Shown one piece after another: positions 1-58,258 of a stretch of DNA of 64,000 nucleotides. Each line of letters starts with the position of its first letter. The stretch's first letter is position 1. A program made the translations under genes and the position numbers. The notes below the pieces were generated by a model. That model ran no database searches. It worked only from the letters and a program-made list of their open reading frames with translations, and was not told the DNA's origin. Source of the DNA: Taiwanofungus camphoratus (taxonomy: Eukaryota; Basidiomycota; Agaricomycetes; Polyporales; Taiwanofungaceae); the NCBI GenBank assembly GCA_003999685.1, contig CP021224.1:2728001-2792000 (forward strand), written 5' to 3'.

Positions 1-348
1 GAAGAGAACGAGTCCCAGTAGGAGATGCGCGGTGACTTGCTTGAAGATAGTATATTAGTCCAGTATGTCCGAGGGTAATGGAGAGTACTGATTGTACGTA
101 TAAAGGTAGTACTACTAGTATGCAATGTGCACCGTTATGATTGTAGCGACCGCTATCGATCCTTTACTTACGGGACGATGCCAAATTCAATCATATGATA
201 TCACTTGCTCACTTGGACTCAAGCTAGCTCAGCGCTTTCGTTTATTGAAAACTTTCTCCACAAGGCTTCCCTCTAATGGCACCCACGGTAGCAATACACT
301 AACCAAGGACGCGGGAAATTCTCCTCGATATTTTCATCATCCTCACCC
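1..348. other. 5' flank of the PX gene, no gene recognised
   Basis: This stretch ahead of the PX-domain gene holds only a short open frame with no recognisable domain or codon pattern. It probably contains the PX gene promoter, but no clear TATA box stands out. Confidence 0.4.
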
Positions 349-1183
349 ATGGCGTCTGCTGCGTCAGCGTCAGGGCAGCCATTGTCGCCCCCTGACTTAC
401 CATCACACCCGTTTGAGAATGCCAAAGGTTTGCTGGTCATACTGCCCGATAAAATTGATGTTGAGGAAGAGTCCCGACTCTACGAGGAGCTTTGTGAGGT
501 GAGTCATGAGGTACTGGTAAATGGGCTCAGAAACGAGGTGTTTGAGCATTCTTCAGAGTCCAGACGACAATTCGTTTGCACCTCCACAATCTCCTCCACG
601 CTCTTCTCGAGGGACTCCCTCAGTCTTCTCGCGCGATATCTGGTTGGGAGACAACTCTGGCGAAAGTCAGACGTTCGCTCGTGACATCGAAATTGTTGGA
701 TGGACCAGCGTCGGCGACAGACGGGGTGGCGCATATATAGGTAACCTGTTTTCCTGCCCGTCTGTGTGCTTGACGGGAGCTGAGTAGCAAGAAACAGTAT
801 ATGACTGTGCAATACGGACTAAGGAGGTACGGTGGTTGGCATAACTCTTAACTCTGGGTGCTGAGACTGTCACGATAGGGCACCATCATACACGTACACA
901 AGCGATACAGCGCTTTTTCTCAATTGTATGCTAGGCTCCGTGCGACGCTTCCTGTCAGCCTTTTCCTTCCTCCCCTCCCGCCCCGTGCTGATGATAGCCG
1001 TGTGGACAGGAACATCAGCAGCATTTCATCCCCACCCTGCCTCCGAAATATCCCCTGGCAAAGTTTCGTCCAACTTTCCTTGATCGTCGGCGACGGCTTC
1101 TTCAGCATTGGCTTTCCTCAGTCCTATTACATCCGGATATTGGTGGATGCCAGGCAGTTAGGGAGTGGGTGATAGACCAGTGA
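349..1183 (+). CDS. PX-domain (phosphoinositide-binding) protein, sorting-nexin/Ypt35-like
   Basis: Five exons join into a continuous frame of about 200 residues: 349-498, 557-740, 798-826, 879-953 and 1019-1183. Each junction has GT...AG ends and keeps phase. The spliced protein has a short Ser/Pro-rich N-terminus, then a PX-like domain: IEIVGWTSVGDRRGGAYI-type first strands, VYDCAIRTKE, the KRYSAF motif that carries the canonical phosphoinositide-binding Arg-Tyr, a LRATLP...LPPK proline loop, and FRPTFLDRRRRLLQHWL before the final helix. PX domains bind phosphatidylinositol 3-phosphate on endosomal or vacuolar membranes. The small size and lone PX domain resemble Ypt35-like adaptors rather than BAR-containing sorting nexins; that assignment is inference. 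It is unrelated to the kinase array that follows. Confidence 0.85.
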
Positions 1184-1270
1184 TATATGTTCGCTCAATA
1201 TGCAACACATTGCCATCGAGGTATCATGGTCACGCAGGCCGTGCACACAAGCTTTGGCCCTTGACTACTT

Positions 1271-1276
1271 TATAAG
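1271..1276 (+). promoter_or_regulatory. TATA box of the first FunK1 copy
   Basis: TATAAG follows the string TTGACTACT, which is also found just before the TATA box of the second FunK1 copy near 4643. The two promoters therefore appear to descend from one sequence. Confidence 0.5.
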
Positions 1277-2114
1277 GCGGAAAATCAAATTGTATCTTTA
1301 TTCTGTTGTCCCCAGATTCACTACCGCGACGGTTCCTCTCCTCAAATTACAGTGATATCATGATGAATGATACCTCTTATGACTTAGCAGATGGAGCGCA
1401 CCACAACTAATCTGCAGAAACGGCGGTGGTCGATGCACATGTCGGAGGTGGATAGCACCAAAGCACCGCCTAAAAAGATTCGCTGGTCAGCAGGTAAGCG
1501 AGAACAACCCATGCAACAACTTCGAGTCTCATTGTGGTGATAATTACACAGCTGCCGCATCTCAGACAACTCCTCTCAATTTAAGGGATATCCACCATGC
1601 TTTGGAAGAGGATGACGCAGCTCAGGATGAAGTTGCAAAGCGTTATGTACAGGCGCATTTTGAAGACAAGGTTCTCCGCCAATTGCCTGTCCGCGAGTTC
1701 GTTCGCGCAGTTTGGAACTTCACCGCAGCAGACATGCCTGACTTAGATATTGCGTGCTATACGCTTCCAATCGATACCCTGAACAGGTATCTGCAGTGTC
1801 AATGGAAAAGTTACAGCTGTCAGCCCTTGATGGAAATTATACATCACGTACTCAGCCAAATATCATTTAGTGACCGCCCTGAACCAAAGCAAAAGCGTCT
1901 TGGAAAACGGAAGTGCTTTCGCCTACGCAAACACACGCTGAAAGGAGATTACAGTTGGGGATTGAAGTCGGACTTGGCATGGGGTACTGCCAAGTGCGAT
2001 CAATGCCTCCCTTGGGAATGGTGCCCTGGCTTTATCGAAGTTAAGAAGGTACCTTGGAAACCTTTGAAGCGTAAGACTGATGTTGAGGTGCTGTAAAAAT
2101 TTTGTGAGATTGTA

Positions 2115-2528
2115 AGATATGCCCATCTCATTTTCGACTACTATCATCACAGTGTGACCATCACGTGTAACAGCCGGACAAGTGTTTGTTAAGGCATTAG
2201 TTACATGATAGGTACTGAATATAAACATAATTAATGCAGTTGCTCGAACGCTACCTTCAAACTAAAATGATTGTAACATGCTTATCTAAGCAAACATGTT
2301 CAATTCCATACAAGATGGTCTTATAACTATCTAAGAAGGCTTTTAATAAGAATCGGCCACCATCAAACTGTAGAGAGGTCATTTCCGCACAGTTTGATGG
2401 TCGCGGAATTTTGAGTTATGTGCTATGTCTTTAGCCTATAGATTTTTTCGTATTTCTCTCTGCCAAATTGCTGTAAGCGTGACAGACAATGGTCACGTGA
2501 TGTAGTCGAGAATGAGATAGGCATATCT
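2115..2528. mobile_element. MITE-like non-autonomous DNA transposon, TA target site
   Basis: The 414-bp segment has terminal inverted repeats of about 45-50 bases with a few mismatches. The left end reads AGATATGCCCATCTCATTTT and the complement of the right end reads AGATATGCCTATCTCATTCT; similarity continues through CGACTAC and a TGACCAT block. TA lies at 2113-2114 and at 2529-2530, as expected of a TA target duplication in Tc1/mariner-type or Stowaway-like elements. There is no transposase gene inside. A 13-bp hairpin lies near its middle. It sits at the exon 2/intron 2 border of FunK1 copy 1, a site that in copy 2 holds only a 65-bp intron. Confidence 0.85.
2359..2401. repeat. Hairpin (inverted repeat) inside the MITE
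   Basis: ACCATCAAACTGT (2359-2371) and ACAGTTTGATGGT (2389-2401) form a perfect 13-bp stem with a 17-base loop. It lies near the centre of the inverted-repeat element and may be part of its fold-back structure. Confidence 0.8.
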
Positions 2529-3649
2529 TATGAGGACACAATAATCACGGTCGTTCGCATACACTGATATTCTTCTAACTGCTCTCGTTACAGCCAACTT
2601 CCCCTGCCTGCAAGTCAGGCAATGCTATATCTAGTTGAGCTGCAGCATGCACTAGCCCGTGTATGTTCTCTGGCATTAAACGCAAGGGACCTGCGACTAA
2701 TTCTGACGACGACGTCGAATCTCCGTCAAAGCGCTTTTGCTCTACCGATAATGACCATTCGGACGCGAAGGTTGGCTCAGCAGGACACATCAACGTCAAG
2801 TTGAGCCCCGATGAACAACCAGTGTCGACAGACAAAAACAGGGAGATACGTGATTGAGCTGTTGTCTCATGGTATGCGGTCCTACGCAACCGGATGCACC
2901 ATACAGTGCACGACTATAACACTGTGGTATGGAGATCGGATGGGACTCATCCAGTCGGAATCCCTTGACTTCAAGAAGGAGCCACATCTACTCTTTCTAT
3001 TACTCGCTGCATTGGATTCTGCCGACCATACGCACGGGCATCTGTCCTTTCCTCGAATTCCCGACGAGCGCTCATGACGCAATTCTGGTGTTCAGCTTGA
3101 GCTGGATGATCAACCGTGAACAAAATGGCAGTGGGGAAGTTGGTCTTTGACTTCGATGAAAGTCGCTCAGTGATCACCGAATTTGGAGTGGTCGGACGAG
3201 GGACTACGGTTGTGCCAGTCAAGGCTACTGGAAAAGTGAAGGTTTTGTTTGGCGAGGATGACCTTAGAGTAAAGGCGGCATGGCCTCCCAAGGAGCACTA
3301 TGCGGAAGACGGCTTCGTCAGGGCCATCCGGACGGGACTGGAGGAACGCGCACCACGGTGGCTTGATCATGTAGTCGATCTGAAATGTTCGGTCACTCGC
3401 AAGATGGGCGAAATGGATTTCCCCAGATCCCGCATGTCAAGCGTTTTGGGTTACGAGGAGCGGGTGTTCCGAGTCATAGTCATGAAGGTCCTCCAGATGG
3501 TGGATAGTGTTGATGAGTTTAAAAAGATATTCGTCGACGTTGTGAGCGGCAAGTCTGTTCGTATTATGTTGCGTGCGACGGTCACTAACTAGGATTTGGA
3601 TTAGCTCATCACTGGGTATGGAAGACCTCTGGTGTCTTGCATCGCGACA

Positions 3650-4647
3650 TAAGTCTGATTTCTGGTTTACGGATGGAAATATTATCCTTATGGTCGGACA
3701 TGCAGCGTTCAAAGTGCACCGCGGCCAGCTCGAGAGGCATTCCGACATTTTTAGAGATCTTTTTGCAATCCCACAGCCACCGGGCGAAGAACGTATCGAT
3801 GGATGCTTCTGGGTAGAGTTGTACGATTCTCCTTCTGACTTCTTACATCTCTTAGGTGCATTGTACGATGGGCTGTGAGTATTGCCTCTATTATACGATC
3901 GTTTTGATGTCTGACGGTCTCTGACGCAGCTATTTCAAGAAGTCATCTGCTAGTGATTTTCCTGCCGTAGCAGCAGTTTTGCGTCTCTCAACGAAATACT
4001 TTATTGAACATCTTCGTGATCGTTGCTTGGTTCGGCTCAAAGCAGATTGGCCAACTACTCTCGTCGGTTGGGATGATAGGGAAAAGCAAGCTACGGACAG
4101 CATTGGCCGCTATACGCCTCGCGAGACATTTCCACATCCGATTCTTGCCATTGAGCTTGCACAAGAACTCAAGCTTGATGATATTCTTGCTTCTGCTTTC
4201 TATGACCTGTCTCGCTATGGACCTCGGAAAATTGTATCTGGAACCACCTCTCCTCCCCTGGTGTTACCTCTACCTGCATCTCTGCCTTCCGCTTCCTGCA
4301 AAGCATCGATTGAAGAACACGCGGTGATCTGCCTTTCACAACAAGATTTATACATCACGCTTTTGGGGCGGGAAGCTGGGCAGCGCTATATGGCTACTTT
4401 CATCGACAAGGAAATTGCCAATCGCCCTATATCCTCCGACTGCACAAACAAGCTGAAGGAGGATGGAAGGGTCTGTCGGGAATCGTTTTACTTTATCATG
4501 CTCAACGTTTTGCGCTCTGTCGACTTACTTAACAAAGTAGATTCATCACGTGACAGTCACGTGTGTCGCGTTCCCATTGTTCTTCCCGGCCACGGAACGT
4601 CGATCGAAGCAAGCCACCCATTTGACCTGGCCTTTGACTACTTATAA
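3650..4647 (+). pseudogene. BTB/POZ-domain gene fragment, fused to FunK1 at both ends
   Basis: Two exons, about 3650-3874 and 3930-4647, are joined by a GTGAGT...GACGCAG intron. They encode most of a BTB protein of the same family as the intact gene at 56921-58258. Shared motifs are SRHKSDFWFTDGNIIL at the BTB start, FKVHRGQLERHSDIFRDLF, the YDG turn before the intron, and VLRLSTKYFIEHLRDRCL after it. The 5' end has no start codon of its own: it is joined to a FunK1 HRD motif at about 3650-3665. At the 3' end the frame runs into the promoter region of the next FunK1 and stops inside its TATA box. BTB proteins usually dimerise and can recruit cullin-3 ligases. This copy looks like a truncated chimera; whether it is transcribed is unknown. 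Confidence 0.8.
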
Positions 4648-4648
4648 A
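4643..4648 (+). promoter_or_regulatory. TATA box of FunK1 copy 2
   Basis: TATAAA lies 92 bases before the ATG at 4740 and follows TTTGACTACT, as in copy 1. The TAA at 4645-4647 inside it is also the stop codon of the upstream BTB-derived frame. Two CACGTG/CACGTGT boxes lie near 4547-4564. Confidence 0.6.
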
Positions 4649-4739
4649 TCAGGAGACTGAAGTCATGTCCTCATTCTTTCCTTTTTGAATTCGCTACTGC
4701 GATAGTTGCTCTCCATCTACTCAAAGCGACATTACCAGT

Positions 4740-7504
4740 ATGACTGACACTTCTTACACTTCAGAGACGGACGACACCGTTCCCGAGCTGCAAAAACGTC
4801 CGTGGTCTGTACCTACGTATATGTCTGAGGAGGATGGTCTCAAAACTCCGCCACCAAGGAACTGGTCCGTAGGTGAGCAGGAGTGAATATTGCCCATGAA
4901 ACAAGTCTCACTATGATTGTAACACACAGCTGCCGCATCTCAAGCAACTCCTCTCAAATTAAAGGGTATCTACGATGCCGCAGGAGAGGACGGAACAATT
5001 GTAGACGAAGGCGCGAAACGCTATGTACGAACGCACTTCAGAGATAAGGTGCATCGTGGGTTGTCTATCCACGAGTTCGTTCGCGCAGTCTGGAATTTTA
5101 CCTCCGCCGTCATGCCCAATGTTGCATTCTACACACTTCCAATCGATAGTGTGAACAAATATCTTCAGTGTCGGTGGGAAAAGAACAGCTATAAGCCCCT
5201 CGTGGAAATTCTACAACATGTACTCAGCCAAGCATCATCTAGTAATCGTCCAAACCTGAATCGAAAACGTCTTGGAAAACTCAGCTTCTTCCGTCTACGC
5301 GAGCGCACTGTAAAAGGACATTATGCTGAGGCACTGAAGCCAGATTTAGCATGGGGCACGGCCAAGTGCAGCCAGCGTCGGCACTGGGAGTGGTACCTTG
5401 GCTTCATCGAAGTCAAGAAAGGATCTCGAAAGCCTTTGAAGCGCAAGGTTGACATGCGTATCCTTCCAAGATCATTAAAAATGGTATGTAAAACCTCCAA
5501 TTGTAGTTATTTGTATGCACTAATCGTCTTCTAATTACCCTTTTTCAGCCAACTTCCCCGGTCTGCAAGCCAAGAGTTGCTACATCTAACAAAACTGTAG
5601 CATGCGCGAGCATACGAATGCCTTCGGGCGTAAAACGCAAGGGAACAGCAACTGTTTCTGAAGATATCGAACCTCCTCCCCCAAAACGCTCTCGTTCTAA
5701 CGCCAATGACGATATGGATACTAACATGGCCTCAGTAGAACACATTAACGTGGAACTCAATCCAGATGACCAGCCTGTGTTGACAGATGACGAAGTGCAG
5801 GCAGGGAAATACATGAACGAGTTGCTGTCTCATGGCATACGGTCCTATGCAACCGGATGCATGATAAGGGACACGACTGTAACCCTCTGGTATGGTGATC
5901 GAATGGGGATCGTTCAGTCGGAATCCTTCAACTTCCTTCAACAGCCGCATCTATTGGTTCTAATCCTCGCCGCGATGGATTCCGCTGATCATGAACACAT
6001 GGGGATCTGTCCTTTTATCACATTCCCAAGAACCTCTTACCACGAATACTCTGGTGCGAAGCTTGAACTGGACGATCAACTTGCGATAGACGTGAACGAA
6101 AACCCGCTAGAGAAGCTGGTCTTTGATATTGACACTGCTCGAAGAGTGATTACTGAATTCGGAGCAGTTGGCCGAGGAACGACAGTCGTACCAATCAAGG
6201 CCACTGGTACGGCGAAAATTATGTTTGGAAAAGATGATCTGGTAGCAAAGATGGCATGGCCTTCGAAGGACCGTGACGCGGAGGACAATTTCATCAGGGT
6301 CATCCGGACAGGACTCAAAGAGCATGCGCCACGCTGGGTTGATCACGTAGTCGATCTCAAATGTTCCGTGACTCGGCATATGGAGGAGATGGACTTTCCC
6401 AGAATTCACATGACAGGTCTCCTGAATTACGAAGAACGGTTATTCCGAATCATGATTATGAAGAAATACTAAGTCCTCCAAATGGTGGATAGTGTAGATG
6501 AGTTCAAAAAGATATTCGTCGACGTCGTGAGCGGTCAGTTTTCTTATATCGGTCCGCGTTCGATGATTGCTGACCAAACAGTTGCGTCAGCGCATCACTG
6601 GGTGTGGGAGACCACTGGTATCTTGCATCGCGACGTCAGTGTGAACAATATCATGTTCTATAGACATGAGAACGACGGCGTTAGGGGTGTCCTGTGTGAT
6701 TGGGACCTTGCGATGTTCAAACCCTCAGAGAAGGACTACAACGAGGATGATGATGAACTTTTTGAGGAGAACAAGGACGACGGCGGTAACGTACTTCAGG
6801 AGCCCCACGAGCCATACGAAGATAGGGCGGATGATAATACGGGATCACAGACCAAATCATCGGATTCCAAAGCACAAAAAGTGGATCAAGAAGAGGCTGA
6901 CTCAGCATCTGCGAGAGAGGACCCACGGTCGGGGGAAGAAAATGGCCAAGTGTCCAAGGAAGCCAACACAGCCCAAGAGCAATCGCGTAAACGACCGAGG
7001 TATCGCACTGGCACAGGACCATTTATGGCTCTCGATCTGTTGGCAAAGGGAAGGGCTCCCCTTCACCGTTACCGTCATGATCTAGAGTCATTTTTCTTTG
7101 TGCTAGCGTGGGTCTGTGCGGTGTTTGATCCTGTGGCGCACAAGTTCGGACATCTTCCAGAGTGGGAATCCAAGAATTTGTCCTCGATCGGCTCCCACAA
7201 GAAGGAATTCATTTTCCACGAGGAGGATTGTGTACAAGCTTTCCGTGCGGCACATAAGGACTACGCAATACTTGCTGAGACATGGGTCCGGTCGCTTAGG
7301 AGTCTATTTGTTCGCGTCGCAGATGCACGCAATTCAATTGAAATTCTTCGGGGCGATTGCAAACTCGCGATTGCAAGAGATGATTGGGAAGAGGTGCACA
7401 CAATGAAAGCAGCAATCATGCAAAAGAAGGCAGAAAGGAATACCATGGTGACGTACGAAAAATTTATGCAGCGCCTTGGTGTTCCCCCCTCAATTCCTCG
7501 ATGA
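4740..7504 (+). pseudogene. FunK1 fungal-type protein kinase, copy 2, with one in-frame stop
   Basis: Four exons (4740-4872, 4930-5483, 5549-6533, 6591-7504) give an 861-codon frame broken only by TAA at 6470-6472; the intact copy has Glu at that position. Motifs in order: EFVRAVWNFT, LAWGTAKC, RMGIVQSE, GRGTTVVPIKATG, LVAKMAWP with the likely ATP-binding Lys, the catalytic loop LHRDVSVNNIMF, DWDLA in the DFG position, a long acidic insert, then RTGTGPFMALDLL and the HRYRHDLESFFFVLAWVC helix. FunK1 kinases are a fungus-specific protein-kinase family, expanded in mushrooms, with mostly unknown substrates. If the stop is real, translation yields a product lacking the catalytic loop. It could also be a sequence error or a segregating allele, because the frame downstream is otherwise clean. 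Confidence 0.8.
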
Positions 7505-8140
7505 TGCCTGTTATTAACGAGACACCGACTCCCATCGTGTACCATTTTTAGCCTTAGCAAGCCACATAGATCTTCTCATGTACTGGCGTTCGTAATGGCA
7601 CAGCGGCGTGTCACACCGACAGGTGTATACCCAATGTATAATCGACCTTATACCATGAAATACTTCCGCAGAGCGATTCCAATTATCTTGTAACACGATA
7701 GGACCCGTACTTTAAAATCGCCGGCAAGCTAAACTGTAGAGCACACTCAGCAGCAAACTGTGTGAAAATCCTCGGCATGCTTGGAGACATGACAGCTTGT
7801 AAACACTATATATGCCAGGAGACGCGAGAGGCTTCATCTCAGACCACACCAATAGATGTTGGAAATTCCAGTTTCTATGCTCGGTACATACAGATCACAT
7901 GACCTAACGTAGTACCTGTTCATACGTACCTGATTCGGTACGTGTTTGCTGGCGGAGACCAGGTCAAACATGGTCTATTCTTCCTCTGTTGTGCGGTCTC
8001 AGCTAAACTACAACAATAGACGCTGCCTTTTTCATGAACACTCGGAAGTACAAGTTGAGAGGCAACTCGAGGGAGGGTCCGATGATCTACGAAGTCGAGG
8101 AGCAAAATAAGTTACCTGATGTTGTGAATGCTCTTGTCGT
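7505..8140. other. Spacer between FunK1 copy 2 and the F-box-like relic
   Basis: No gene was recognised. A short string near 7720-7765 (AAACTGTAGAG...AAACTGT) resembles the middle of the MITE at 2115-2528, but the match is too short to call a second copy. Confidence 0.4.
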
Positions 8141-9031
8141 AATATGAACCTTGACAAGAGACAGACCTTCAGCCCTACGCCGATGAGAGGTATGAAGCCC
8201 ATAATGAGCCTCCTCGAATTTCCGCCGGAGGTCTTGCTCGTTATGTAGGACCATATCCATATCCTGCGCGATGCTGTCTCTCTCGCAGTGGCACATCGCG
8301 CACTTCTAAGCGTCGGCTGGAAACACATCAAGCTCTTGATCGCGACCTCGTGGGCGGGCAACCGTGTCGTGTGTCTCGGTAGTTGTATGCACACAACAGA
8401 CTTGCCGCCCGGTATGCTCACGGATGCGGAGCAAAAGAAGCTAAGCTTGGATGCTGACTCGTCGAAGGACACCGATCTAGACTCGGTTTCATACTCGTGT
8501 TCGGACTTGGACTAGGTGTAGGACTGGGTGCCATGTTCGCGCTTAGGCACAGTTTTGAACGTCGTCTCGGACGTGCAGTGCCGAACTAAGAGGCGTATGA
8601 GTGAGTACACATCTTTGTGGAAGGTCGCCCAGAGGACTTACAAGGAAGTCGGGGGGCGCGGTGATACTGGCATCGAGGAACTATACATGCGTAGGATGCG
8701 TCGCCGCGATCACTGGATGTTCATGCAGTTAACCACGCCGCAGTATGGCGCTGTGAACATATCATGGGCGCTGTGCAATCTCTCTAAGCAAGAGTACATT
8801 CGTGCAGATGCAGTCGCGAAGCTCACGAAGGCTCCGCTGAACGGTCCGTTGATCAAAGGGTCGATCGGCCTCGGCGAAGTGCTCTTGTCGCAGATTTGTT
8901 GGTCTTCATATGCCAGTACTTTCTTTCGTATGACGGCGACCTTCATCGCAGAAATTGGGCTGGTGATCGCTTGGAGGATCAGCACGATGAACAGGCTGGA
9001 AGGAATGAAGACGCAAGTAACTGGCGTCTAA
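8141..9031 (+). pseudogene. F-box-like family member, decayed copy
   Basis: This is a relic of the family found intact at 24528-25853 and 26621-28070. A piece of the short second exon (N-L-D-K motif near 8147) is followed directly by the F-box-like segment LLEFPPEVLLVM, then a stop at about 8245, and HIHILRDAVSLAVAHRALL. Next come SWAGNRVVCLG and LPPGMLTDAEQKKL, then stops near 8512. The C-terminal domain is visible from 8597: YTSLWKVAQRTYKEVGGRG, YGAVNISWALCNLSKQEYI and IGLGEVLLSQICWSS. The frame then slips, so the final GDRFEIN-like part reads in another frame. Several stops and at least one frameshift make it non-functional. Confidence 0.8.
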
Positions 9032-14788: not shown

Positions 14789-15824
14789 CTAGTACGGACA
14801 TTCCACGGAGACAGACTTGAACGTGGCGGTCATTTTTTTAGGGGCAGATGACCAGTCGATAGGACCCTTTGCCCACTGTGCAGTGCCCGCAGGCGCGCTT
14901 GCGTCCCAGATTCCGAGCTGAATGCGAGTGGGGTGAGAGGGGAAGTGCAGCGCGCCATTCTTCTGAGTCTGATCTACACGGGCCATCAAATATCTCTGTT
15001 TACATACAAAGCGCTTGGAAAGGAGAGATGAGTTCCGAGGCTCACCTTTCTTGAGCGTGCGCACCTGCACACCATCTACACTCCAAATTATGCGCTCATC
15101 GTTCCAATCAACTGTATATTCATGTGCGCCTTGTACTGAGCCTCCGTGCGCGTAGTCCTCAATCTCCCCAAAGACTCCCCAAAGAGGTTGTTTGTCTTGG
15201 GGACTTGGGGCATAGACGTTCGTCTGCCAGTGTGATGGGTCCCCGCCGAGTAATTCGACATCAATTTCGTCATGTTGGTCGGCTAAAACGGAGTGCGAAT
15301 AGAGAATTCACTGGAGAATGTATTGCGCAGTCAGAACTCTGAGCATACCAATAAGAATTGCTGCAGTAACAACTCCAGGGACAAGAGGACCAGATACAGT
15401 GAAGGTGACCTTCCCATACCTGGCAAGAAATCGTGATTACAAGATTCGCACGTTTCATAAGCAAGACGCCAAATTAGGCTCACAGTACAGTGAAGGTGGA
15501 ATTAATCGTAGCGCCGTCGCCGAGTCTGTCATTAATGCCATCCTTCGTAGTGATGGTCCCGTTTGGCCTCTCCAAGATCAATTGCAGTCCATCTTGAGCG
15601 AAATTATAGGACTCCTGCGGGCTGATGGCAGTGAAGGGTGTATTTAACTCTGTCGAGACATCAGCTGGGTCAAAGGTGCATTGAAAGGGTTGGCATTGGG
15701 AGACTGATCGCCTCGCTTGAGGGTGGAGGCGCCTATTGGAAGTACGATTCAGAGTAGCATAGGTCTGGGAGGTCTGACAGAAGAAGGAATTTAAGAGTAG
15801 AATAGACAAAAGTAAGGTAATCAT
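14789..15824 (-). CDS. GH16 family Crh-type transglycosylase (cell-wall chitin-glucan crosslinking)
   Basis: Four exons on the minus strand (15824-15484, 15419-15349, 15282-15046, 14973-14789) join to 277 residues. The N-terminus is a signal peptide (MITLLLSILLLNSFFC). Next comes the jelly-roll fold with YGKVTFTVSGPLVPGVVTAA, the catalytic motif DEIDVE (nucleophile and acid/base glutamates around Asp), HWQTNVYAP, YTVDWNDERIIWSVDG and IQLGIWDASAPAGTAQWAKG. The protein ends at VECPY. In Crh1/Utr2-type enzymes this fold links chitin to beta-glucan in the fungal wall. No C-terminal GPI signal is seen, so it may be secreted or soluble in the wall. It is divergent from the LRR gene across a promoter region of about 235 bp. 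Confidence 0.9.
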
Positions 15825-19561: not shown

Positions 19562-22271
19562 CTATTGCGAAATAGAAGTAGGCGCTACGCCGAGGCACTG
19601 CATGAAAGCCTCGTAAGTGACCATCGTGTTCCTGCGCACTTTCCTCTGCGTAATTTCATCATTGATAGAATCAATTCGGTTCAGATGTCCTTTTCGCCTT
19701 GTCAGCTTACGTTCGACACGAAGATCTAGTATTTCCTCGGATTCCTTGAGAATACGGAGAAACTCCCATCTGAGAGGCAGGACCCAATTCTCCGCAAGCG
19801 CCGCATAGTCAGGATGTGCAGAAGAAAACATCTTCTGCCATTCCTGCTCTACACGCAGGAATGCCCTCTTGTTTCGGCCTATCGTTATTAAATTGGAGCT
19901 TTCCCAATCTGGGAAATGTCCAAACTTATGTCTCACGGGATCAAATACAGCGCAGACCCAAGCGAGGACATAAAAGAAAGACTCTAGATCGTGACGGTAG
20001 CGATGAAGGGGAGCTTTGCCTTCGGACAACAGATCGAGAGCCATGAATGGACCCGTGCCAGTACGATACCTAGGTCGTTTATGAGGTTGTTCTTGGGCAC
20101 CGTTAGTGTCATCGGGCCCATCTGTCTGATCGTGCCTTTCGAAGCTTCCCTGGGGCACCGTAAGTTCTGCGCGCTTGGTAGCTGTGCGTGCGGTTATCAA
20201 AATATCGCCGTCGTTGTCTGCGTGAGCATTCTCGTCATATTCATTGTCATCTTCCTCGAACTCTTCTTTTGAAGGCCTGAACATTGCTAGGTCCCAGTCG
20301 CACAGTATTCCAATGGCACAGCCGTTCTCGTCCCTGTAGAACATGATATTGCCCACACTAATGTCACGATGCAGGACTCCAGCGGTCTGCCACACCCAAT
20401 GATGAGCTAGCAAACGTAAATTACTGCTCGTCGGTAGCTCGTATGATGGTGGCAGGATACTTACCGCTCACGACATCAACGAAGATCTGTTTGAACTCTT
20501 CGGCACCATCCACAAGCTGAAGCGCCTCGTATTTCTTCATAACCATGATTTTGAACACTCTATCTTCATGATCGAGAAGTTTTTGCATATGAACCCTGGG
20601 GAAATTCATCTCGTCCATGCGGCGGGTTATTGAGCACTTCAGATCAACTATATGCCTGAGCCACCGCGGACCTTGTTGTTGGATTTTTTGCTTGATCACC
20701 CTGATGAACTTATCTTCAGGTTGACACTTTTTAGGCGGCCATGCCATCTTGGCCACAAGATCATCCTGACCGAATAAAGTTGCCGCGGCCCCAGTCGCCT
20801 TTATGGGTACAATTGTAGTTCCTCGGCCGACCGCCCCAAATTCGGCGCTGATTCTTTGTATGTTGTCGACGTCGAATATCAGCTTTTGCAGCGGTCTCCC
20901 ATCAGCATCGAAGGCAAGTTTGTCATCTACCTCGAGCTTCACATTAGAATAGCTGTCGTAAGCACCCGAAGGGAACTTGAGAAACGGGCAGATACCCAGG
21001 TGTGCATGATTAGCGGATGTTATGGCCGCGATGGCAAGCAGTAGCATGTGCGGTTCTTCCATGAAGTCGAAAGGTTTTGACAGCACTATTCCCATACGAT
21101 CCCCGTACCAAAGTGTCACGATGGTATTATCAATCATGAAGCCGGATGCGTAAGAACGTATGCCATGAGACAACATGTCGTTGATATACTTTGCTGCCTG
21201 CACTTCGTTGCCCGTCAACCTTGGTTGATCAGAAAGATTGAGGCCCGTATTGGTGTGTTTTGCGAAGCCGCCTCGAAGGTCTGGGTGGGCGCCTGAGCGG
21301 AATCGTTTCTGTGGAGGCTCAACAGCTTCTGATACGGTCGGTGGTCCTTTGCGCTTATTGCCCCCAGAAGCCAACTGAGCACTGGAAGATACGTTCGAGG
21401 GGTTATATGGAGCGCTCTCAGACTGCAGGGAGTGGATACTCATGGGCTAACAGAGATAAGGAATCAGAACATGATGAGTACGAGATAGTCCTAAGATTCT
21501 TACTTTATTGAGCGCCGCTGTCGAAAAGGGAATGTCTAATATATAATCAAGGGGATTCTCCTCGTGCTTTTTGATTTCCATAGAGCTGAGATGCCAATCC
21601 CAGCATAGAGTATCATTGCCTGTGGTGGTACCCCATCCCAAGTCTGGCTTGAATACCGCGTTATAGTTTCCTCGTAGTAGACGTTCTTGCATGTTTCGTA
21701 CTTTGATTTCAACTTGGGATTCTCGTTCACTGATTGAAAACTTTCGTTTCCACGGCGTAGGACTGTTGCCAAGCGACACCTGCCTTTGCAAATGTTGAAG
21801 GATAGCAACGAGATACGGATAGCCGTCCGATTCCTTGGCACATCTCAAGTACATGCTAAGAGGTAGAATAGGAATGGTATAGCTCTTAATCCCTGGTGTT
21901 GGAACGACAGGAATATCGTCAGGCGTAAAGTCCCAAACAGCGTGAACGAATTTGCGAACGGGCAGTCCACGATAGACCTTGTCTCTAAAATGCTCTTGGA
22001 CCCAAAGTGTCATAGCTTCGTTCCTGACAGCACCACATTTTTCGGTAACATCCTCTATTTCCCTAGATTTGAGAGGGATTATGTGCAATACAGGAGCCGC
22101 GCACGTTGAGACAACAACAGTGTTTGGGCATAACTTGTCAGTTGATATATGTTTAGGTGGAGGCGGCTTCTTGTTTCGATCATGAGGAGTGGGGTTCCAA
22201 GGTCTTACTACAGAGAGGGAAGGTACGTTGTCTGCCAACTCTGGCTCGTGTATGTCGTAGCTGTCAGTCAT
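19562..22271 (-). CDS. FunK1 fungal-type protein kinase, intact copy 3
   Basis: Three exons on the minus strand (22271-21504, 21446-20465, 20406-19562) join with phase kept into 864 residues. The N-terminal region has VRKFVHAVWDFTPDD and FKPDLGWGTT. The kinase part shows RMGIVLSKPF, GRGTTIVPIKATG, LVAKMAWPP (likely ATP-binding Lys), VLHRDISVGNIMF (catalytic Asp and Asn), CDWDLAMF in place of DFG, an acidic insert of about 90 residues, KRPRYRTGTGPFMALDLL and HRYRHDLESFFYVLAWVC. It matches copies 1 and 2 along its length but lies on the other strand about 12 kb away. It appears to lack the first intron of copies 1 and 2. All key kinase residues are present, so activity is plausible; the substrate is unknown. 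Confidence 0.9.
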
Positions 22272-24527: not shown

Positions 24528-25853
24528 ATGGGTCAATATTGGGACATGTAAGCTGCACGTTTGTCTTCGGAGCGCTGTTGACACGACTGGTGCCTCTGCC
24601 GCAGCATAAATCTTGACAAGAAGCAGACACAGGGGCCTGGAAAAGTTCTGGGTAAAGTCATGTTCGACGCCTCACCCTGCCGCCTTGTGAACATGCTCGC
24701 CGTGCCGCAATATGCACCGCTCCCTCTTGACACGTCGAACAAGGCCCAGGTACGTAGCACTCTTCACCGAATTGCCTGGTTTCGGCTCAACTCACAGGGC
24801 GGCTTGTTCACGTCTCCGCGCGTAATCCAGTCCGCCCTCGGCGCGCTCGAGCTCCCTCCAGAGCTGCTGTACGTGATCTTCGACCAGGTTGACACCCTAT
24901 GCGATGCCGCGTCGCTCTGCTTGGCGAACACACTCCTCTTCGCCATCGGCCAGCGACGCGTGCACGAGCTCATGGTTGCGAACTCGTGGGCGGGCGATCG
25001 CGTCATTTGTCTAGGCGAATATATGTGCACGCGAAGCTTGCCCAGGGGGCTGCTCACAAAAGCCGAGCGGCGGGTGTTGAGAGTGAGAAAGGGAGAGAAG
25101 CTAAGCATGGAGGAGGCGTGGTACACGTATGGGAATTTGAGTAGGACATTTATGCTTGAAGATACCGAGGACGACGATGAGGACGACGACGACGACGACA
25201 AGAAGGATGATGCGGAGGGCGTGCGCGCGAATGAGGAAGCGGATGATAGAAACGAAGATGAGCTCAAAAATGGCCCGAAACTTGACAAATACACCGGCGT
25301 GGATAACGACAAGGATGAGCCACGCAGGGTTCGCGCTCGTACTGTGATCCATTATCGGTCCTTGTGGAGGCAGGCAAGGAGTTCGTACGAGAAAGTGGGC
25401 TACGAAGGTGATCCCGGTGTGACGAGCTCGTTCCTACAACAGATGTGCGACTCGGAGCGCAAGGCATTTACAGAGCTGATCAAACCAGCATACGGCACCA
25501 CCGATGCATCGTGGGCGCTGTATAACCTGTCGAAGCGGGAGTATATCCGGGCGGACGCGGTCGCGGAGCTCACTAACGCGCCGCCAAATGGGCCGTTTGT
25601 CAGGGGCAGGGTGGGCCTCGGGGAGGTGCTCCTGGCGCGGATTTGCTGGTCGTCACGCAATAACACTGCCATGGCGTACAGAGGCGAGCTGCACCAGGGA
25701 ACATGGGCGGGAGACCGCTTCGAGATCAACAAAATGGAGAGGCTGGAGGAGTTGGAGAGGAGAGGAGATTGGACCGACGTCACCCGAGAGGCGCTGGAGG
25801 AAGTGGTAGCGATTTGGAATTGCGAGTGGGAAGGCAGTGATTGGCGTAAGTAA
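24528..25853 (+). CDS. F-box-like family protein, member A
   Basis: Three exons: a 20-base exon 1 (24528-24547, MGQYWD), a 145-base exon 2 (24605-24749) and exon 3 (24798-25853), giving 406 residues. Exon 2 encodes IINLDKKQTQGPGK and the MFDASPCRLVNMLAVP segment. Exon 3 opens with an F-box-like helix set (LELPPELLYVIFDQVDTL, then CLANTLLFAIGQRRVHELM). Then come SWAGDRVICLGEYM, a very acidic, Asp-rich linker, and a conserved C-terminal domain with YRSLWRQARSSYEKVGYEG, YIRADAVAELTNAPPNGP, VGLGEVLLARICWSS and WAGDRFEINKMERLEEL. F-box proteins recruit substrates to SCF ubiquitin ligases, but that role is only inferred here. The family looks mushroom-specific, and the function of its C-terminal domain is unknown. 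Confidence 0.8.
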
Positions 25854-26543
25854 CAAACGGTGTTCCCAAGTATGTATCGGTTGTAACTGAGCACCATCAT
25901 ATGATGTCGTCTGGCGCGAAAAAAATATTATTATAAAAAAGATTAGGAAGGGAATACTCTCAGAGCCTCTCAAGTTGTACTGGGGAACATATGTATGGTT
26001 GATGCGTCAGTGTGCCATCAGCTAGCGTTAATCAAGCTCCCGCGAAGTGCATGTAGGCTACGAGGAAGGAAAATTGATGTGTATTGTTCGACATTATAGC
26101 AGGATGTCCCGTGTATGGACCTCTGACGTGATGCACAGTTTGATTTAGACAGAACGGTCACTGTTGCAACCCTCTTGTACATAGCTCACTGTGGATTGGT
26201 CTGGCAGGACTAGTCGCACTCATGATTGTGCTCCAGGAGGGTGACTGTGCAAAGTGAACGGTTTTCGCAGATGGTGGGATTGAACGGTTCGCTTAAATGA
26301 AGGGAAAAGGGTCGGTGAATGGCGAGACATCAGATCAAATGAGCTGGATAATACCAAATAACAATGTGCGAATCAAGCGCTGAGCCTCGGTCACATAACG
26401 AGAAGACGCTCGGGCATGGACCCTTGTAGCAAACAGGTCACGAGAAAGTGACGTCACGTAAAATGTCATGTCACAGCCGACAATGGACAACGCTTTGTGT
26501 GGCTTTGGTCGATCGGCTGCGCCCAGTGGCCACCGAAAAACTG
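25854..26543. other. Spacer between F-box-like members A and B
   Basis: No coding sequence was recognised. Its right end holds the promoter of member B, which is closely matched upstream of member C. Confidence 0.4.
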
Positions 26544-26549
26544 TATAAA
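26544..26549 (+). promoter_or_regulatory. TATA box of F-box-like member B
   Basis: TATAAA lies 77 bases before the ATG at 26621. It sits in a block (CTGCGCCCAGTG...ACAGTGGC...CTCACGGGCTTCATCTGTC) that is repeated before member C. Confidence 0.6.
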
Positions 26550-26620
26550 CAGTGGCCCTCACGGGCTTCATCTGTCAACCACATCGCTGCAAACCAATTT
26601 ACCGCATACCTGTAGTGACA

Positions 26621-28070
26621 ATGGGTCAATATTGGGACATGTGAGTCATGCCCTCTGTGCCATGCCCTTGGCGACGGCTTGTAGCTCACATCTTTTAATC
26701 GCAGCATAAACCTTGACAAGAAAGAGACGCGGGGCCCCGGGAGCAAACTCGGCGAGTTCATGTTCGACAGATCGCCCGAGACCCTCGTCAACGTTTTCGC
26801 CGTGCCGCTGTGCCCGCCAGACCCTCCTAACACGCCAGCAAAGAACCAGGTACGTGGCACGTCTCGTCGCTTGGCTCTACGCTCGGGCTCAATTGGTTCC
26901 TGCCCACAGCGCGAGTCGTTCACGCCTCCGCGCGGAATGAAACCCGCTCTCGGGGTGCTTGATCTCCCGCCGGAGCTGCTGGGCATGATCTTCGTCCAGA
27001 TCCACGTCCTGCGCGATGTCGCGTCATTCTGCGTGACAAACACTGTTCTGTATGCCATTGGCCGGCGACGCGTGCACGAGCTCATGGTCGCGAAAACATG
27101 GGTGGGAGACCGCGTCGTGTGTCTGGGCGACTATTCGCGCACACCCGACCTACCAAAGGGCATGCTCACAGATGCAGAGATGGAGGCATTGAGAGTAAAG
27201 GAAGGGGAGGTGCTCAGTAGGGAGGAGAGGTGGAATTTAGATGAGAGTGACGACGACAATATTGATGGGGATGAGGATATTGACGGTGACGGCAACGGCG
27301 GCGGCGACGACATTCATGGGGACATAATCATAAATTTGGACTACTTTAAGGATGCAGACGAAGACCAGGCTCAAGATGTGGACAAGGGAGAAGAACCACG
27401 AGCCGAAGGCAAAGAATCCACCGAAACCTCAGAGCCTACTAAGCGGGTGGACCACGACACAGATAAGAAAACCGACGAGGACGCGGAGGAGCGACCAGGC
27501 ACGAGCCAAGACGCGGAAGACGCAGCAGGCACCGAAGCTCCGGTTAGGCCCAATCGCCGCCCTAGAAACCTGTACCGATCCCTGTGGCATCACGCAACGA
27601 GTGAGTACAAGGAGGTGGGCTATAGCACCCGCTTGCCATACGAGTTTATGTACAGGATGCGCAGTGCGGAGCGCAAGGCATTCGAGCAGCTGATCACCCC
27701 GAATTACGGCCCCAAGGACTTGTCTTGGGCTCTGCTCAACCGGACCAAGCGCGAGTACGTGCGCGCGGATGCTGTGGCAGAGCTGACGAACGCGCCGCGG
27801 AATGGGCCGTTCATCGAGGGCAGGGTGGGCCTGGGAGAGGTGCTCCTTTCGCGGATCTGCTGGTCCTCGGATGATGAGACTGGTACTCCGTTCATAGAGG
27901 GGCTTCACCGGGGGAAATGGGCGGGCGACCGGTTTGAGATTAATACGATGGAGAGGCTGGACGAGTTGAGGGCAAGGGAGACCTGGACTGACATGACCAA
28001 GGAGGTGCTCGATGAGGTGGTGACTATTTGGGATTGCGTATTCGACGACGATAGCTGGCGTAAGACGTAG
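26621..28070 (+). CDS. F-box-like family protein, member B
   Basis: It has the same gene plan as member A: a 20-base exon 1 (26621-26640), a 145-base exon 2 (26705-26849) and a long exon 3 (26910-28070), 441 residues in all. Exon 2 gives IINLDKKETRGPGSKLGEFM. Exon 3 holds the F-box-like LDLPPELLGMIFVQIHVLRD, the TWVGDRVVCLGDY strand, a linker of about 110 residues rich in Asp, Glu and Gly, and the conserved C-terminal domain from NLYRSLWHHATSEYKEVGY to WAGDRFEINTMERLDEL. The C-terminal part is almost identical to member C, while the acidic linkers differ. It is the best-preserved of the four copies. Function unknown; an SCF-adaptor role is inference. Confidence 0.82.
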
Positions 28071-28220
28071 AGAGGACTTGTGCCCATGAAATATATGCAT
28101 TTACCGTTTGTTGATCAAGTACAATGTGATCTGGAGATGAGCATAGGTGGCACTGGTAAGAGTCGCTGTGTACGACTACTGTACTGCTAGGTGTGGTGAG
28201 GGGTAATTACCTTAGGGGGC

Positions 28221-28895: not shown

Positions 28896-29096
28896 AATGT
28901 ACAAAGTTGGTGGTCTTCCAAGTATCTCCGAAGTGCTCTGAACCTGATCTGCATTGATCTTGGAAGTAATGCGGCGAAAGAGTAGAAGACAAGTCATTCA
29001 GATAGCACCAGCGCGGCAGTTCCCGAGCACACTAACCTAGACGTCCGTTCTAAAGGACGCGGCTTTGGTCAATCGGACTGCGCCCAGTGTTCAGCA

Positions 29097-29102
29097 TATA
29101 AA
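29097..29102 (+). promoter_or_regulatory. TATA box of F-box-like member C
   Basis: TATAAA lies 73 bases before the ATG at 29170, in a region nearly identical to the promoter of member B. This shows that the duplication included the promoter. Confidence 0.6.
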
Positions 29103-29169
29103 CAGTGGCACTCACGGGCTTCATCTGTCAACCATATCGCTGCACGCCGATTTACCGTACATCTTTACA

Positions 29170-30567
29170 ATGGGTCAATGGTGGCAAAGGTGAGTCACGC
29201 CCTCTGTGGACGGTCCTTATCGACGGCTTGTAACTCATCTCTTTTTGTCGCAGCATAAACCTTGACAAGAAAGAGACGCCGGGCCACATGGGCGGACTCG
29301 ACGAGTTCATGTTCAACACCTGGCCTAGCACCCTCGTCAACATGTTCGCCATGCCGATGTACCCGCCAGACCTTCCTAGCACACCAGAAAAAGACCATGT
29401 ATGTGGCACATCTCGTCGCTTCGCTCTACGCTCGGGCTCAATGTGTTCCTGCCCACAGCGCGAGTCATTCACGCCTCCGCGCGGAATGAAACCCGCTCTC
29501 GGGGTGCTTGATCTCCCGCCGGAGCTGCTGGGGATGATTTTCGACCATATCCACGTCCTGCGCGATGCCGTGTCGTTCTGTGTGGCAAACCCTGTTCTTT
29601 GCACCATTGGCCGCACAAGCTCATAGTCGCGAAAACATGGGTGGGAGACCGCATCGTATGTCTAGGCGACTATATGCGCATGCACGACCTACCAAGGGAC
29701 ATGCTCACAGATGCAGAGATGGAGGCATTGAGAGTAAAGGAAGGGGAGGTGCTCAACAGCGAGGAGGCGTCGCATATATATGGGCCCTGGGATATAGGTG
29801 AACGTAACGATGACGACGTTTATGACTATATATGTGTGGAGGACAGTGACGACGAAGACCAGGCTCAAGATGTGGACAAGGGAGAAGCCCCGCAAACCGA
29901 AGACAAAGAATTCACCGAAACCTCAGAGCCTACTAAGCGGGTGGACCACGACAGAGACGAGAAAATCGGCAGCGACGCAGAGGAACAACCAGATAAGAGC
30001 CAAGACGCAGCAGGCACTGACACTCCGGCTAGGTGCAGTCGCCCCCCTCTAACCCTGTACCGATCCCTGTGGCATCACGCAACGAGCGAGTACAAGGAGG
30101 TGGGCTATAGCATGACCACCCGCTTGCCGTACAAGTTTATGTACAGGATGCGCAGTGCGGAGCGCAAGGCATTCGAGCAGCTGATCACGCCGAATTACGG
30201 CCCCAAGGACTTGTCTTGGGCACTGCTCAACCGGACCAAGCGCGAGTACGTACGCGCGGACGCTGTAGCACAGCTGACGAACGCGCCGCAGAATGGGCCG
30301 TTCATCGAGGGCAGGGTGGGCCTCGGGGAGGTGCTCCTTTCGCGAATCTGCTGGTCCTCGGATGATGAGACTGGTACTCCGTTCATAGAGGATCTTGAGC
30401 TTCACCGGGGGAAATGGGCGGGCGACCGGTGTGAGATCAATACGATGGAGAGGTTGGACGAGTTGAGGGCAAGGGAGACCTGGACTGACATGACCAAGGA
30501 GGTGCTCGATGAGGTGGTGACTATTTGGGATTGCATATTCGACGACAATAGCTGGCGTAAGACGTAG
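29170..30567 (+). pseudogene. F-box-like family member C, 10-bp deletion
   Basis: Exon plan is as in the other members: 29170-29189, 29254-29398 and 29459-30567. Exon 2 encodes INLDKKETPGHMGG and exon 3 the F-box-like LDLPPELLGMIFDHIHVLRD. Compared with member B, ten bases (GCGACGCGTG) are missing after 29613, in the segment that encodes RRRVHELM. This shifts the frame so that the first part ends at 29626. The remaining 300-odd codons stay open from 29599, with the acidic linker and the full conserved C-terminal domain (YVRADAVAQLTNAP, GRVGLGEVLLSRICWSS, WAGDRCEINTMERLDEL). The loss looks recent. A shortened C-terminal protein might still be made, but that is not shown. Confidence 0.8.
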
Positions 30568-32194
30568 AGAGGACTTGTAACCACGATATATGTATGAACT
30601 ATGAATCGTTTGTTGACAAGTGCAATGTGATCTGGAAATGAGCATACCGTGACTGTAAGAGACGCGACGCGTCCGACTACGATGGCCAGAACTGATTTGG
30701 CGCCAGCGGCTGTAGCGGCCTATGTACAATCGATGATTGCCTGGAGACCTTCTGGTGCATTGTTAAACGACGTCTGTTTAGCAAACACGCATATAGGATC
30801 ACAGTTCACGACTCTCAGTCTTAAGGGTATGTTGCCCGTGGGTTTTTTCTCTTCGAGTTCCCCTTCTGGTCGTGGATATCTAAATGTATCCTGCCAACGC
30901 CCCAGCCTGAGTGGCTCATACAGCTATCAATATGGTCTACCAAGTTTTGAGGATGCTTCAATGGTTACATCATGTCCTCCTTCGGGTTCTCCTCCTCAAT
31001 TTCGCCATCGTATGGTCTTGAGGCTGCTGATACAATAGTCTCCACTTATATCAAGCAACGCGACGCTCAACTAAGCGGACAACGACCATTAGACCTTCTG
31101 GATTTGGATACCGTCTCCGCATTCTCCGACTCGGTAGAGCTCGTACATGCTTGACTGAAATTCACACATAGCTGATAGCATTGGCTGTTCATTATGCATG
31201 CGGATGGCATTCTGCGCATAATACCCTACTTCGAAGATCCCGAGTGTATTCTGCCATTCTAGGTATGATGTGGCGTACCCCTCCTAAAGTTTATTTCTGC
31301 CCAGAACCATGGTCCCTCAAAGTCTTGTCCGTGAGGCGAGTGCATGTCACGGCAAGCGACAGGTTATTTAGGACTAGTACTGCGGGATGTGCTGCGGTGT
31401 GCATGATTCCCAGAATGCCTCAATTATCGACGAGACGATGCGAATTAACCTGTCATCAGCCGGACTAAAGGCGTGTCTCTCTTTCCATCACTGTTCCGTT
31501 CCTAACATGCGCTCAAGAGACTGCGCAATCTTGCCATCTATGCAGCACCATTACGTAGCTCGGTCTTGCGCTTCTGATGTTGCAGAATTCTCCAGCCATT
31601 TCTGCTTCGCTGTCACGATGACAGTGCATCTGGGGTGCTGTTCAAGAAGACAACTTTTCCAAAGTGTATCACAAAGGGCAGGCCTATAGCTCGCAAGTGG
31701 CACGACCCACTTTCGAATGCGACAATAACTATTGACCTGCCTTTTCGGGTCCTTAGTCTTTTGCAGCGCCCCACTCCCTCGCGGTAGCGCGTTCTTCGAT
31801 AGAGGAACGACTCAGCCCTGATAACACGAAGATTCCTTTATTGGCGCCTTTTTCCCCAAAGACAAGGCAGCGCGATCGTACTGCAAGTCATCCGGTGTGT
31901 CTTCCAATGGAAACATACTTAGCCTGCAATCGTCATGTCTGTGCGCCATGCGGCTGTCTTCCGTAACTAAGCTTCAGTCTTCCTGGTATCTTCGCATAAC
32001 ACGTTCCTAGACCAACGCTTGTATAGGAAATATACGATCTGTCTAGAGACCGACTGTCTTTTGCACCCACAATCGCCGACACTTCTTGAACGAATTTCTG
32101 ATGCAACGAGGCCTCTGTCCTAGGATCCTAAGACTTTTTTGATCGTAGACGGTAAGGGCATGCCGCAAGGGCTGGTGCAAGCAGAATCAGAACA
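30568..32194. other. Gene-poor stretch before the dynamin gene
   Basis: About 1.6 kb with no recognised family. A frame at 30972-31154 (ending LDLLDLDTVSAFSDSVELV) looks protein-like but has no clear start or partner exons. It may be an exon of an unrecognised small gene or a relic. Confidence 0.35.
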
Positions 32195-56920: not shown

Positions 56921-58258
56921 CTAGGCTGTATAGTGCCGCATGGAATCCCACGTTTCCAGTCGAAACCATGACGGGATGAGCCTCCACATGCGTTCCCGCT
57001 CACGCGCAGCCCATGTCTCGAGCGAATTGGAACATGCCTTGCACTCTGAGAACTCCGCGCTCTTCAGCTGGCCCAGCTCCTCCGCGACATATAGCGGGTC
57101 CGAGCATCCCCGCTCCCGGTCAATTAGGTAGTGCTGCGAGGCCAACTCGACCAGTTCTGAGAAGTCTTTGCGACATGCTGCGGCAGATACGCATATCTGT
57201 CCAGAGGACTTCTGCCGGTGTCGCGAGACCATCCTAGATTGTGATGAACTCGCGTTTTCGCGGTGAGAACCGCTCGCCATGCCTTGTATGAGGCTTGTAA
57301 CGATGTTCTGCGAAGTTTCCTTACCCAAGGCGAGTTTCACCATATCCGATGAAGATAATGAATGAGGTTCCAGCATTGATCGAAGGGGTTCGTCTTCGCT
57401 TGGCTCGTATATTTGTGTATAATGATATCGTGAAAGATCATAAAATGCGGATGGGAGCAGTTCTGGCGCATGTATTTCTCTAGCAAGGCTGATGATCGCC
57501 TGACCAGAGGGGGACGTATGTTGGCATTCCACGGTACATCTCAAAAGGGTAAGAGGAAGGAATTGCTCACGATTGGTGAAGGAAAACGGTAACCGCGGTG
57601 TGCTGTCCTCTCCATTTCATAGGCACGAGCTAGGTCCTCCCTAGCGTCCCAGCCTCTCAAAGTAGATGGCCATGCTGTGCAGAGGTGGGCTAATGCCTTT
57701 GCACGCAGGGAGTCAACAAGGTACTTGGTAGACAAACGAAGGATTCCGGACACCACACGGAAGTCTTCGCGGTCGTTGTTCCCGAATATTCTGAACCCAT
57801 GTCAACGAACATGTACTTGATAAGATATTTTACAATACGTCTACTTACGGACCGTCGTATATCCCTCTCAATAGATTGATGAGATCCTCGGCAGCATCGT
57901 GCAACTGTATAACAGGACAACCTTCGATTGTAGAATGGTAATCATCCCCGTTGGAGGACGATTCCGTATTGCAGCCATGCGACGTGTTTGTAACAGGCTG
58001 TGGCAGTGAAAACAAGTCGCGAAAGAAGCCAGATTGTCGAGACAGTTGGGACATATGGACACGAAAGAGTATGTTCTCTGCACGCAGAACGACAGAACCA
58101 TCTAGGAACCATAGATCGTGATGTCGTATTAGACAGTCATTGTATCCTTCCTCCTTCACTGTAGATGCTCCGTCGTCTTTCACTGTACCGGAATCATCTT
58201 GAATCGACGAATTAGAATTAAAATCACTGAAATCCCTGCTGAGGTCAGTATCTGCCAT
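56921..58258 (-). CDS. BTB/POZ-domain protein, intact
   Basis: Three exons on the minus strand (58258-57849, 57790-57571, 57499-56921) give 402 residues with phase kept. An acidic N-terminal leader precedes the BTB fold: HHDLWFLDGSVVLRAENILF, FRVHMSQLSRQSGFFRDLF, VIQLHDAAEDLINLLRGIYDG, then ILRLSTKYLVDSLRAKAL. The C-terminal half includes FPSPIAIISLAREIHAPELL and SAFYDLSRY, a layout typical of the BTB gene family of mushrooms, and Cys-rich pieces. BTB domains dimerise and may bind cullin-3, but partners are unknown. The truncated BTB piece at 3650-4647 belongs to the same family (same intron after YDG). It is divergent from the secreted-protein gene. Confidence 0.85.

Follow-up and report, generated by a model that had tools for sequence, protein, structure and literature searches.

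A FunK1–BTB mosaic in Taiwanofungus camphoratus as a probable scar of birth-and-death evolution

BTB genes are expanded in mushrooms, and one member of this group is found in Taiwanofungus camphoratus next to kinase sequence. In the stretch of 64,000 nucleotides analysed here (hereafter the window), a FunK1 kinase sequence breaks off within its catalytic loop and gives way to BTB sequence, which in turn runs into the promoter of a second FunK1 gene on the same strand. An earlier note on this DNA saw in the arrangement the fusion of two gene families into a new combination. Does the locus hold such a fused gene, or the remains of two genes that were brought together while being lost? FunK1 kinases were first described in Coprinopsis cinerea, and their expansion by lineage-specific duplication is reported for Paracoccidioides and Coccidioides (PMC3203195).

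The FunK1 copies and the decay of FunK1-A

Three FunK1 copies are present in the 64-kb window. FunK1-C (19562..22271, minus strand) is intact and serves as the reference gene, with three exons coding for 864 amino acids. FunK1-B (4740..7504, plus strand) is a full-length gene by its spliced translation, apart from one in-frame stop codon, and the two pieces of it that were scanned match the Pfam family PF17667 (Pkinase_fungal) with E values of 5.9e-19 and 1.1e-25. Both genes carry this domain and share the HRD-x-S loop, with serine where other kinases have lysine, which PMC3203195 describes for FunK1. The stop of FunK1-B is a TAA at 6470-6472, where FunK1-C reads GAG and where FunK1-A lacks exactly nine bases, in frame.

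FunK1-A (1363..3654, plus strand) lies directly upstream of FunK1-B in the same orientation. The three-way alignment with FunK1-B and FunK1-C, together with Pfam PF17667, reveals a pseudogene reduced to the 5' two thirds of the family's usual gene, which aligns with both relatives from the start region to the catalytic loop and ends at HRDIS. The position homologous to the FunK1-B start is 1363. The earlier note had placed the start at 1391, an ATG shortly after a +1 insertion (position 1388). The same alignment identified two in-frame stops (TAA at 2094-2096 and TGA at 2636-2638) and four deletions: 8 nt are missing after position 2835, 2 after 3029, 1 after 3081 and 10 after 3114. Besides the joint, seven disabling changes are thus counted, five frameshifting indels and two stops, and FunK1-A has no uninterrupted reading frame. 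The donor of its last intron is GC instead of GT, which need not disable a gene by itself. The kinase domain is likewise incomplete, as homology ends at 3654-3658 and no part following HRD (DFG/DWD, C lobe) is present. With PF17667, the piece 2829-3074 is recognized at E 3.8e-7 over profile positions 58-107 of 387, the piece 3110-3589 stays below threshold (E 0.098), and the scan of three other pieces gave no match.

The pattern of substitutions leads in the same direction. Since the split from FunK1-B, the A branch has received 51, 50 and 72 substitutions at codon positions 1, 2 and 3 (of 507, 506 and 509 sites) and the B branch 37, 25 and 72, a difference with a Fisher p of 0.038. FunK1-C was the sole outgroup for these counts, which left out 110 three-way differences and the sites where the codon phases of FunK1-B and FunK1-C disagree. 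Compared with a uniform distribution, the B branch is constrained (p = 2e-6), whereas no clear constraint appears on the A branch (p = 0.07). This contrast and the seven disabling changes are what is expected of a gene that evolved without constraint during part of its past and, on a rough reading, suggest that FunK1-A was such a gene. Judged from its sequence, FunK1-A is a dead copy, old and decayed, and not a near-identical duplicate.

FunK1-A also houses a MITE-like element of about 416 nt (2113-2528 with the flanking TA, 2115..2528 for the unstranded element itself). It is delimited by 27-nt terminal inverted repeats at 2115-2141 and 2502-2528, with TA at each side, and the three-way alignment finds no insertion at this site in FunK1-B and FunK1-C. 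The TA at which the element entered falls exactly within the 5' splice site of an intron in FunK1-A; as read from the sequence, the first bases of the element, AGAT, recreate, after GTA, a donor-like GTAAGA. A search of the 64-kb window located the terminal sequence at these two repeats only.

A few other features of the window can be recorded here. No tandem repeats were found in 1-9000. A glycosyl hydrolase family 16 exon lies at 14792-15307 on the minus strand (PF00722, E 6.2e-24). The stretches 26501-28179 and 29061-30680 are direct repeats of each other (about 1.7 kb, 83% identity), and a diverged third copy occupies 24600-25824; the three main ORFs of these duplicates have no Pfam match. 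A dynamin-like piece at 33681-34463 (PF01031, E 4.7e-5, below the curated cut-off) includes a 128-nt direct repeat, 81% identical, at 33921-34165.

Two joints around a BTB piece

The left joint is well delimited on its FunK1 side. By blastn within the window, 2559-3658 aligns with FunK1-B 5515-6644 at 71% nucleotide identity and 2860-3657 with FunK1-C 21175-20354 (minus) at 64%. Both alignments end at the same place, just past the HRDIS codons at 3640-3654, which agrees with the observation in the earlier note that this FunK1 follows its relatives up to the catalytic loop. In the FunK1 frame these codons form the joint zone CATCGCGACATAAGT (3640..3654, plus strand), the end of FunK1 homology, of which 13 of 15 bases are found in FunK1-B and also in FunK1-C. 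On the BTB side, tblastx detects homology from 3657 with the reference gene BTB-2 at 58117 on the minus strand (51% over 41 aa), and the tblastn match to BTB-2 starts at 3633. These comparisons place the changeover from FunK1 to BTB at 3645-3657, the parental sequences being deduced from one BTB and two FunK1 relatives only, at 64-71% nucleotide identity or less. The previously proposed interval, 3650-3665, was right to about 10 bases.

BTB-2 (56924..58258, minus strand; 402 aa in this splice model) is the nearest relative in the window of the piece beyond the joint, BTB-1. The latter is a 324-codon ORF at 3618..4647 on the plus strand, with exons at 3618-3874 and 3930-4647 (stop codon 4645-4647 included) and an intron at 3875-3929 in the same place as the intron of BTB-2. 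The ORF from 3618 reaches 23.4 bits with the Pfam BTB/POZ profile PF00651 (cut-off 20.5, E 7.2e-5), covering positions 13-106 of 110, while BTB-2 itself falls below the cut-off with 17.6 bits. Weak PDB matches to human BTB proteins were also obtained for BTB-1, with a best E of 0.02 (profile A1). BTB homology to the right of the joint, without which the earlier reading would have fallen, is therefore confirmed by the tblastx match and by the Pfam score. In comparison with BTB-2, BTB-1 lacks the N-terminus and the last part. Residues 1-41 and 314-402 of BTB-2 have no tblastn match at the BTB-1 locus, which falls short of full length, and residues 314-402 have no tblastn counterpart at E <1 in the rest of the window either. 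Searches for BTB and FunK1 relatives in viral contigs and for BTB in prokaryotic contigs confirmed none, a result uninformative about fungi.

The right joint follows from the loss of this last part. The tblastn match to BTB-2 stops at residue 313 of 402, at position 4476, leaving 89 of the 402 residues unmatched. The FunK1-B promoter region (4553..4739, plus strand) shares homology with the FunK1-C promoter from 4553 onward (score 75, against a mean of 23 and a maximum of 45 in 200 shuffles) and with the FunK1-A promoter from 4628 onward (score 63, shuffle maximum 36); the upstream regions of FunK1-A and FunK1-C, compared with each other, do no better than shuffles (33 against a maximum of 36). 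The end of the BTB-2 match and the start of promoter homology set the changeover between 4477 and 4552, and the BTB piece does end, as had been noticed before, in the promoter of the next FunK1. The BTB-1 frame is consequently composite: its codons before about 3645-3657 are FunK1 sequence read in a shifted frame, and those after about 4477-4552 belong to the FunK1-B promoter.

No kinase–BTB protein is encoded here, since the HRD frame differs from the BTB frame. No single reading frame crosses the joint, and the FunK1 frame, which stays open after HRDIS until a stop codon at 3814-3816, has no BTB or Pfam match there. A kinase–BTB fusion protein is rejected on this ground, and the fusion into a new combination advanced in the earlier note fails both on the mismatched frames and on the seven other disabling changes of FunK1-A.

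A short string at the left joint had also been put forward as shared microhomology. This role is rejected for the 15-base CATCGCGACATAAGT, which is FunK1 sequence and whose best match in BTB-2, 10 of 15 bases, is no better than chance (in 67% of 500 trials shuffled BTB-2 scored as high). An ungapped comparison at the joint leaves next to nothing in common between FunK1 and BTB-2, the single BTB relative. The six bases CGACAT could be common to both parents, but only in an alignment of BTB-1 RHKSDFWF with BTB-2 RHH-DLWF that includes a one-codon gap. In 20000 draws, random cut pairs showed a shared run of at least six bases in 0.18% of cases when no slack was allowed, and in 0.54% when one codon was.

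Origin of the mosaic

In tandem multigene families that evolve by birth and death, chimeric and truncated pseudogenes present adjacent copies on the same strand, abrupt ends of homology and a mixture of nonsense and frameshift changes. The same traits are met at this locus. The partners here come from different families; otherwise nothing sets the case apart. Our searches of open-licence PMC papers brought up no report of a mosaic of this kind between FunK1 and BTB. The most probable account, which we hold with reasonable though far from full confidence, is that the mosaic is a birth-and-death scar, ordinary wreckage in two gene families and not a new fused gene.

In the ancestral state, a BTB gene would have separated the two members of a tandem FunK1 pair. 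One deletion or two, or a comparable illegitimate rejoining, would then have brought the start of the BTB domain up against the middle of FunK1-A and, at the other end, the FunK1-B promoter up against the 3' part of the BTB gene. FunK1-A, BTB-1 and FunK1-B share one orientation. Introns are kept in both FunK1-A and BTB-1, so the event took place at the DNA level and retroposition is rejected. We infer the deletion as the event, the previous presence of the BTB gene at this place and the order of events; deletion between neighbours is preferred because it needs no further pieces. The account is weakened by the A-branch test against uniformity, which taken alone gives p = 0.07, and by the small set of relatives, one BTB and two FunK1, behind the parents proposed for the joint.

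The earlier note proposed instead that a BTB–FunK1 block had been inserted or exchanged into an older FunK1, a BTB–FunK1-B segment from elsewhere replacing the 3' part of FunK1-A. The two joints of this proposal stand, and they bracket a BTB–FunK1-B unit; the similarity of the FunK1-A and FunK1-B promoters also speaks in its favour. A simple insertion, however, requires a displaced 3' half of FunK1-A, and none is present between 7504 and 64000. A tblastn search of the window with the FunK1-C protein recovered the FunK1 3' half (after HRDIS) from FunK1-B and from the query gene, and from no other place; the next match, at E 0.36, is antisense in FunK1-C. The absence of this half from the window speaks against a simple block insertion, and an exchange would need an unseen donor. 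The locus may nevertheless derive from an exchange, or from an insertion that extends beyond the window, and we regard this origin as unlikely, with roughly one chance in several on its side.

Somewhat less likely still, BTB-1 would be a living, truncated BTB gene whose start codon is supplied by the dead FunK1-A, read in another frame, and whose final codons are FunK1-B promoter sequence. Its 324 codons are open and its intron is kept, whereas stops interrupt the other two frames of its exons, 2 and 4 of them in exon 1, 15 and 4 in exon 2. The start ATG at 3618 lies in FunK1-derived sequence and exists only in FunK1-A, the same place being GTG in FunK1-B and FunK1-C. Over about 817 nt, BTB-1 has no disabling change, against 3.4 expected at the FunK1-A rate, which was taken from seven changes and 1690 nt, a length that leaves position 1388 outside. 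The corresponding probability is 0.034, or 0.043 with the uncertainty of the rate; if the change at 1388 is left out, a hand calculation gives 2.9 expected changes and a probability of about 0.055. This range, about 0.03-0.055, counts for a living gene and against the scar, and weakly suggests that the BTB piece is either younger than the decay of FunK1-A or constrained. A recent joint, however, accounts equally well for the open frame, and the 3' part is lost relative to BTB-2. The more specific proposal, a live truncated BTB gene that would have acquired its start codon through a base change (GTG in FunK1-B and FunK1-C, GTA in FunK1-A) within the exon of the catalytic loop, with a kinase remnant supplying its 5' end, seems improbable.

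That the joint is an assembly chimera, uniting sequences that lie apart on the chromosome, is quite improbable: the involvement of two multi-copy families would favour misassembly, but the joints lie between unrelated sequences with no long common repeat (at most 6-10 nt), and FunK1-A is too decayed to be taken for a near-identical duplicate.

Read as a scar of birth and death, the mosaic offers a clear and datable example of the remnants that fast-turnover gene families leave behind in a fungus. Automatic annotation may call such a mosaic a kinase–BTB fusion. Expression of the BTB frame, if it occurred, would illustrate how an unrelated pseudogene can furnish a gene with a new 5' end.
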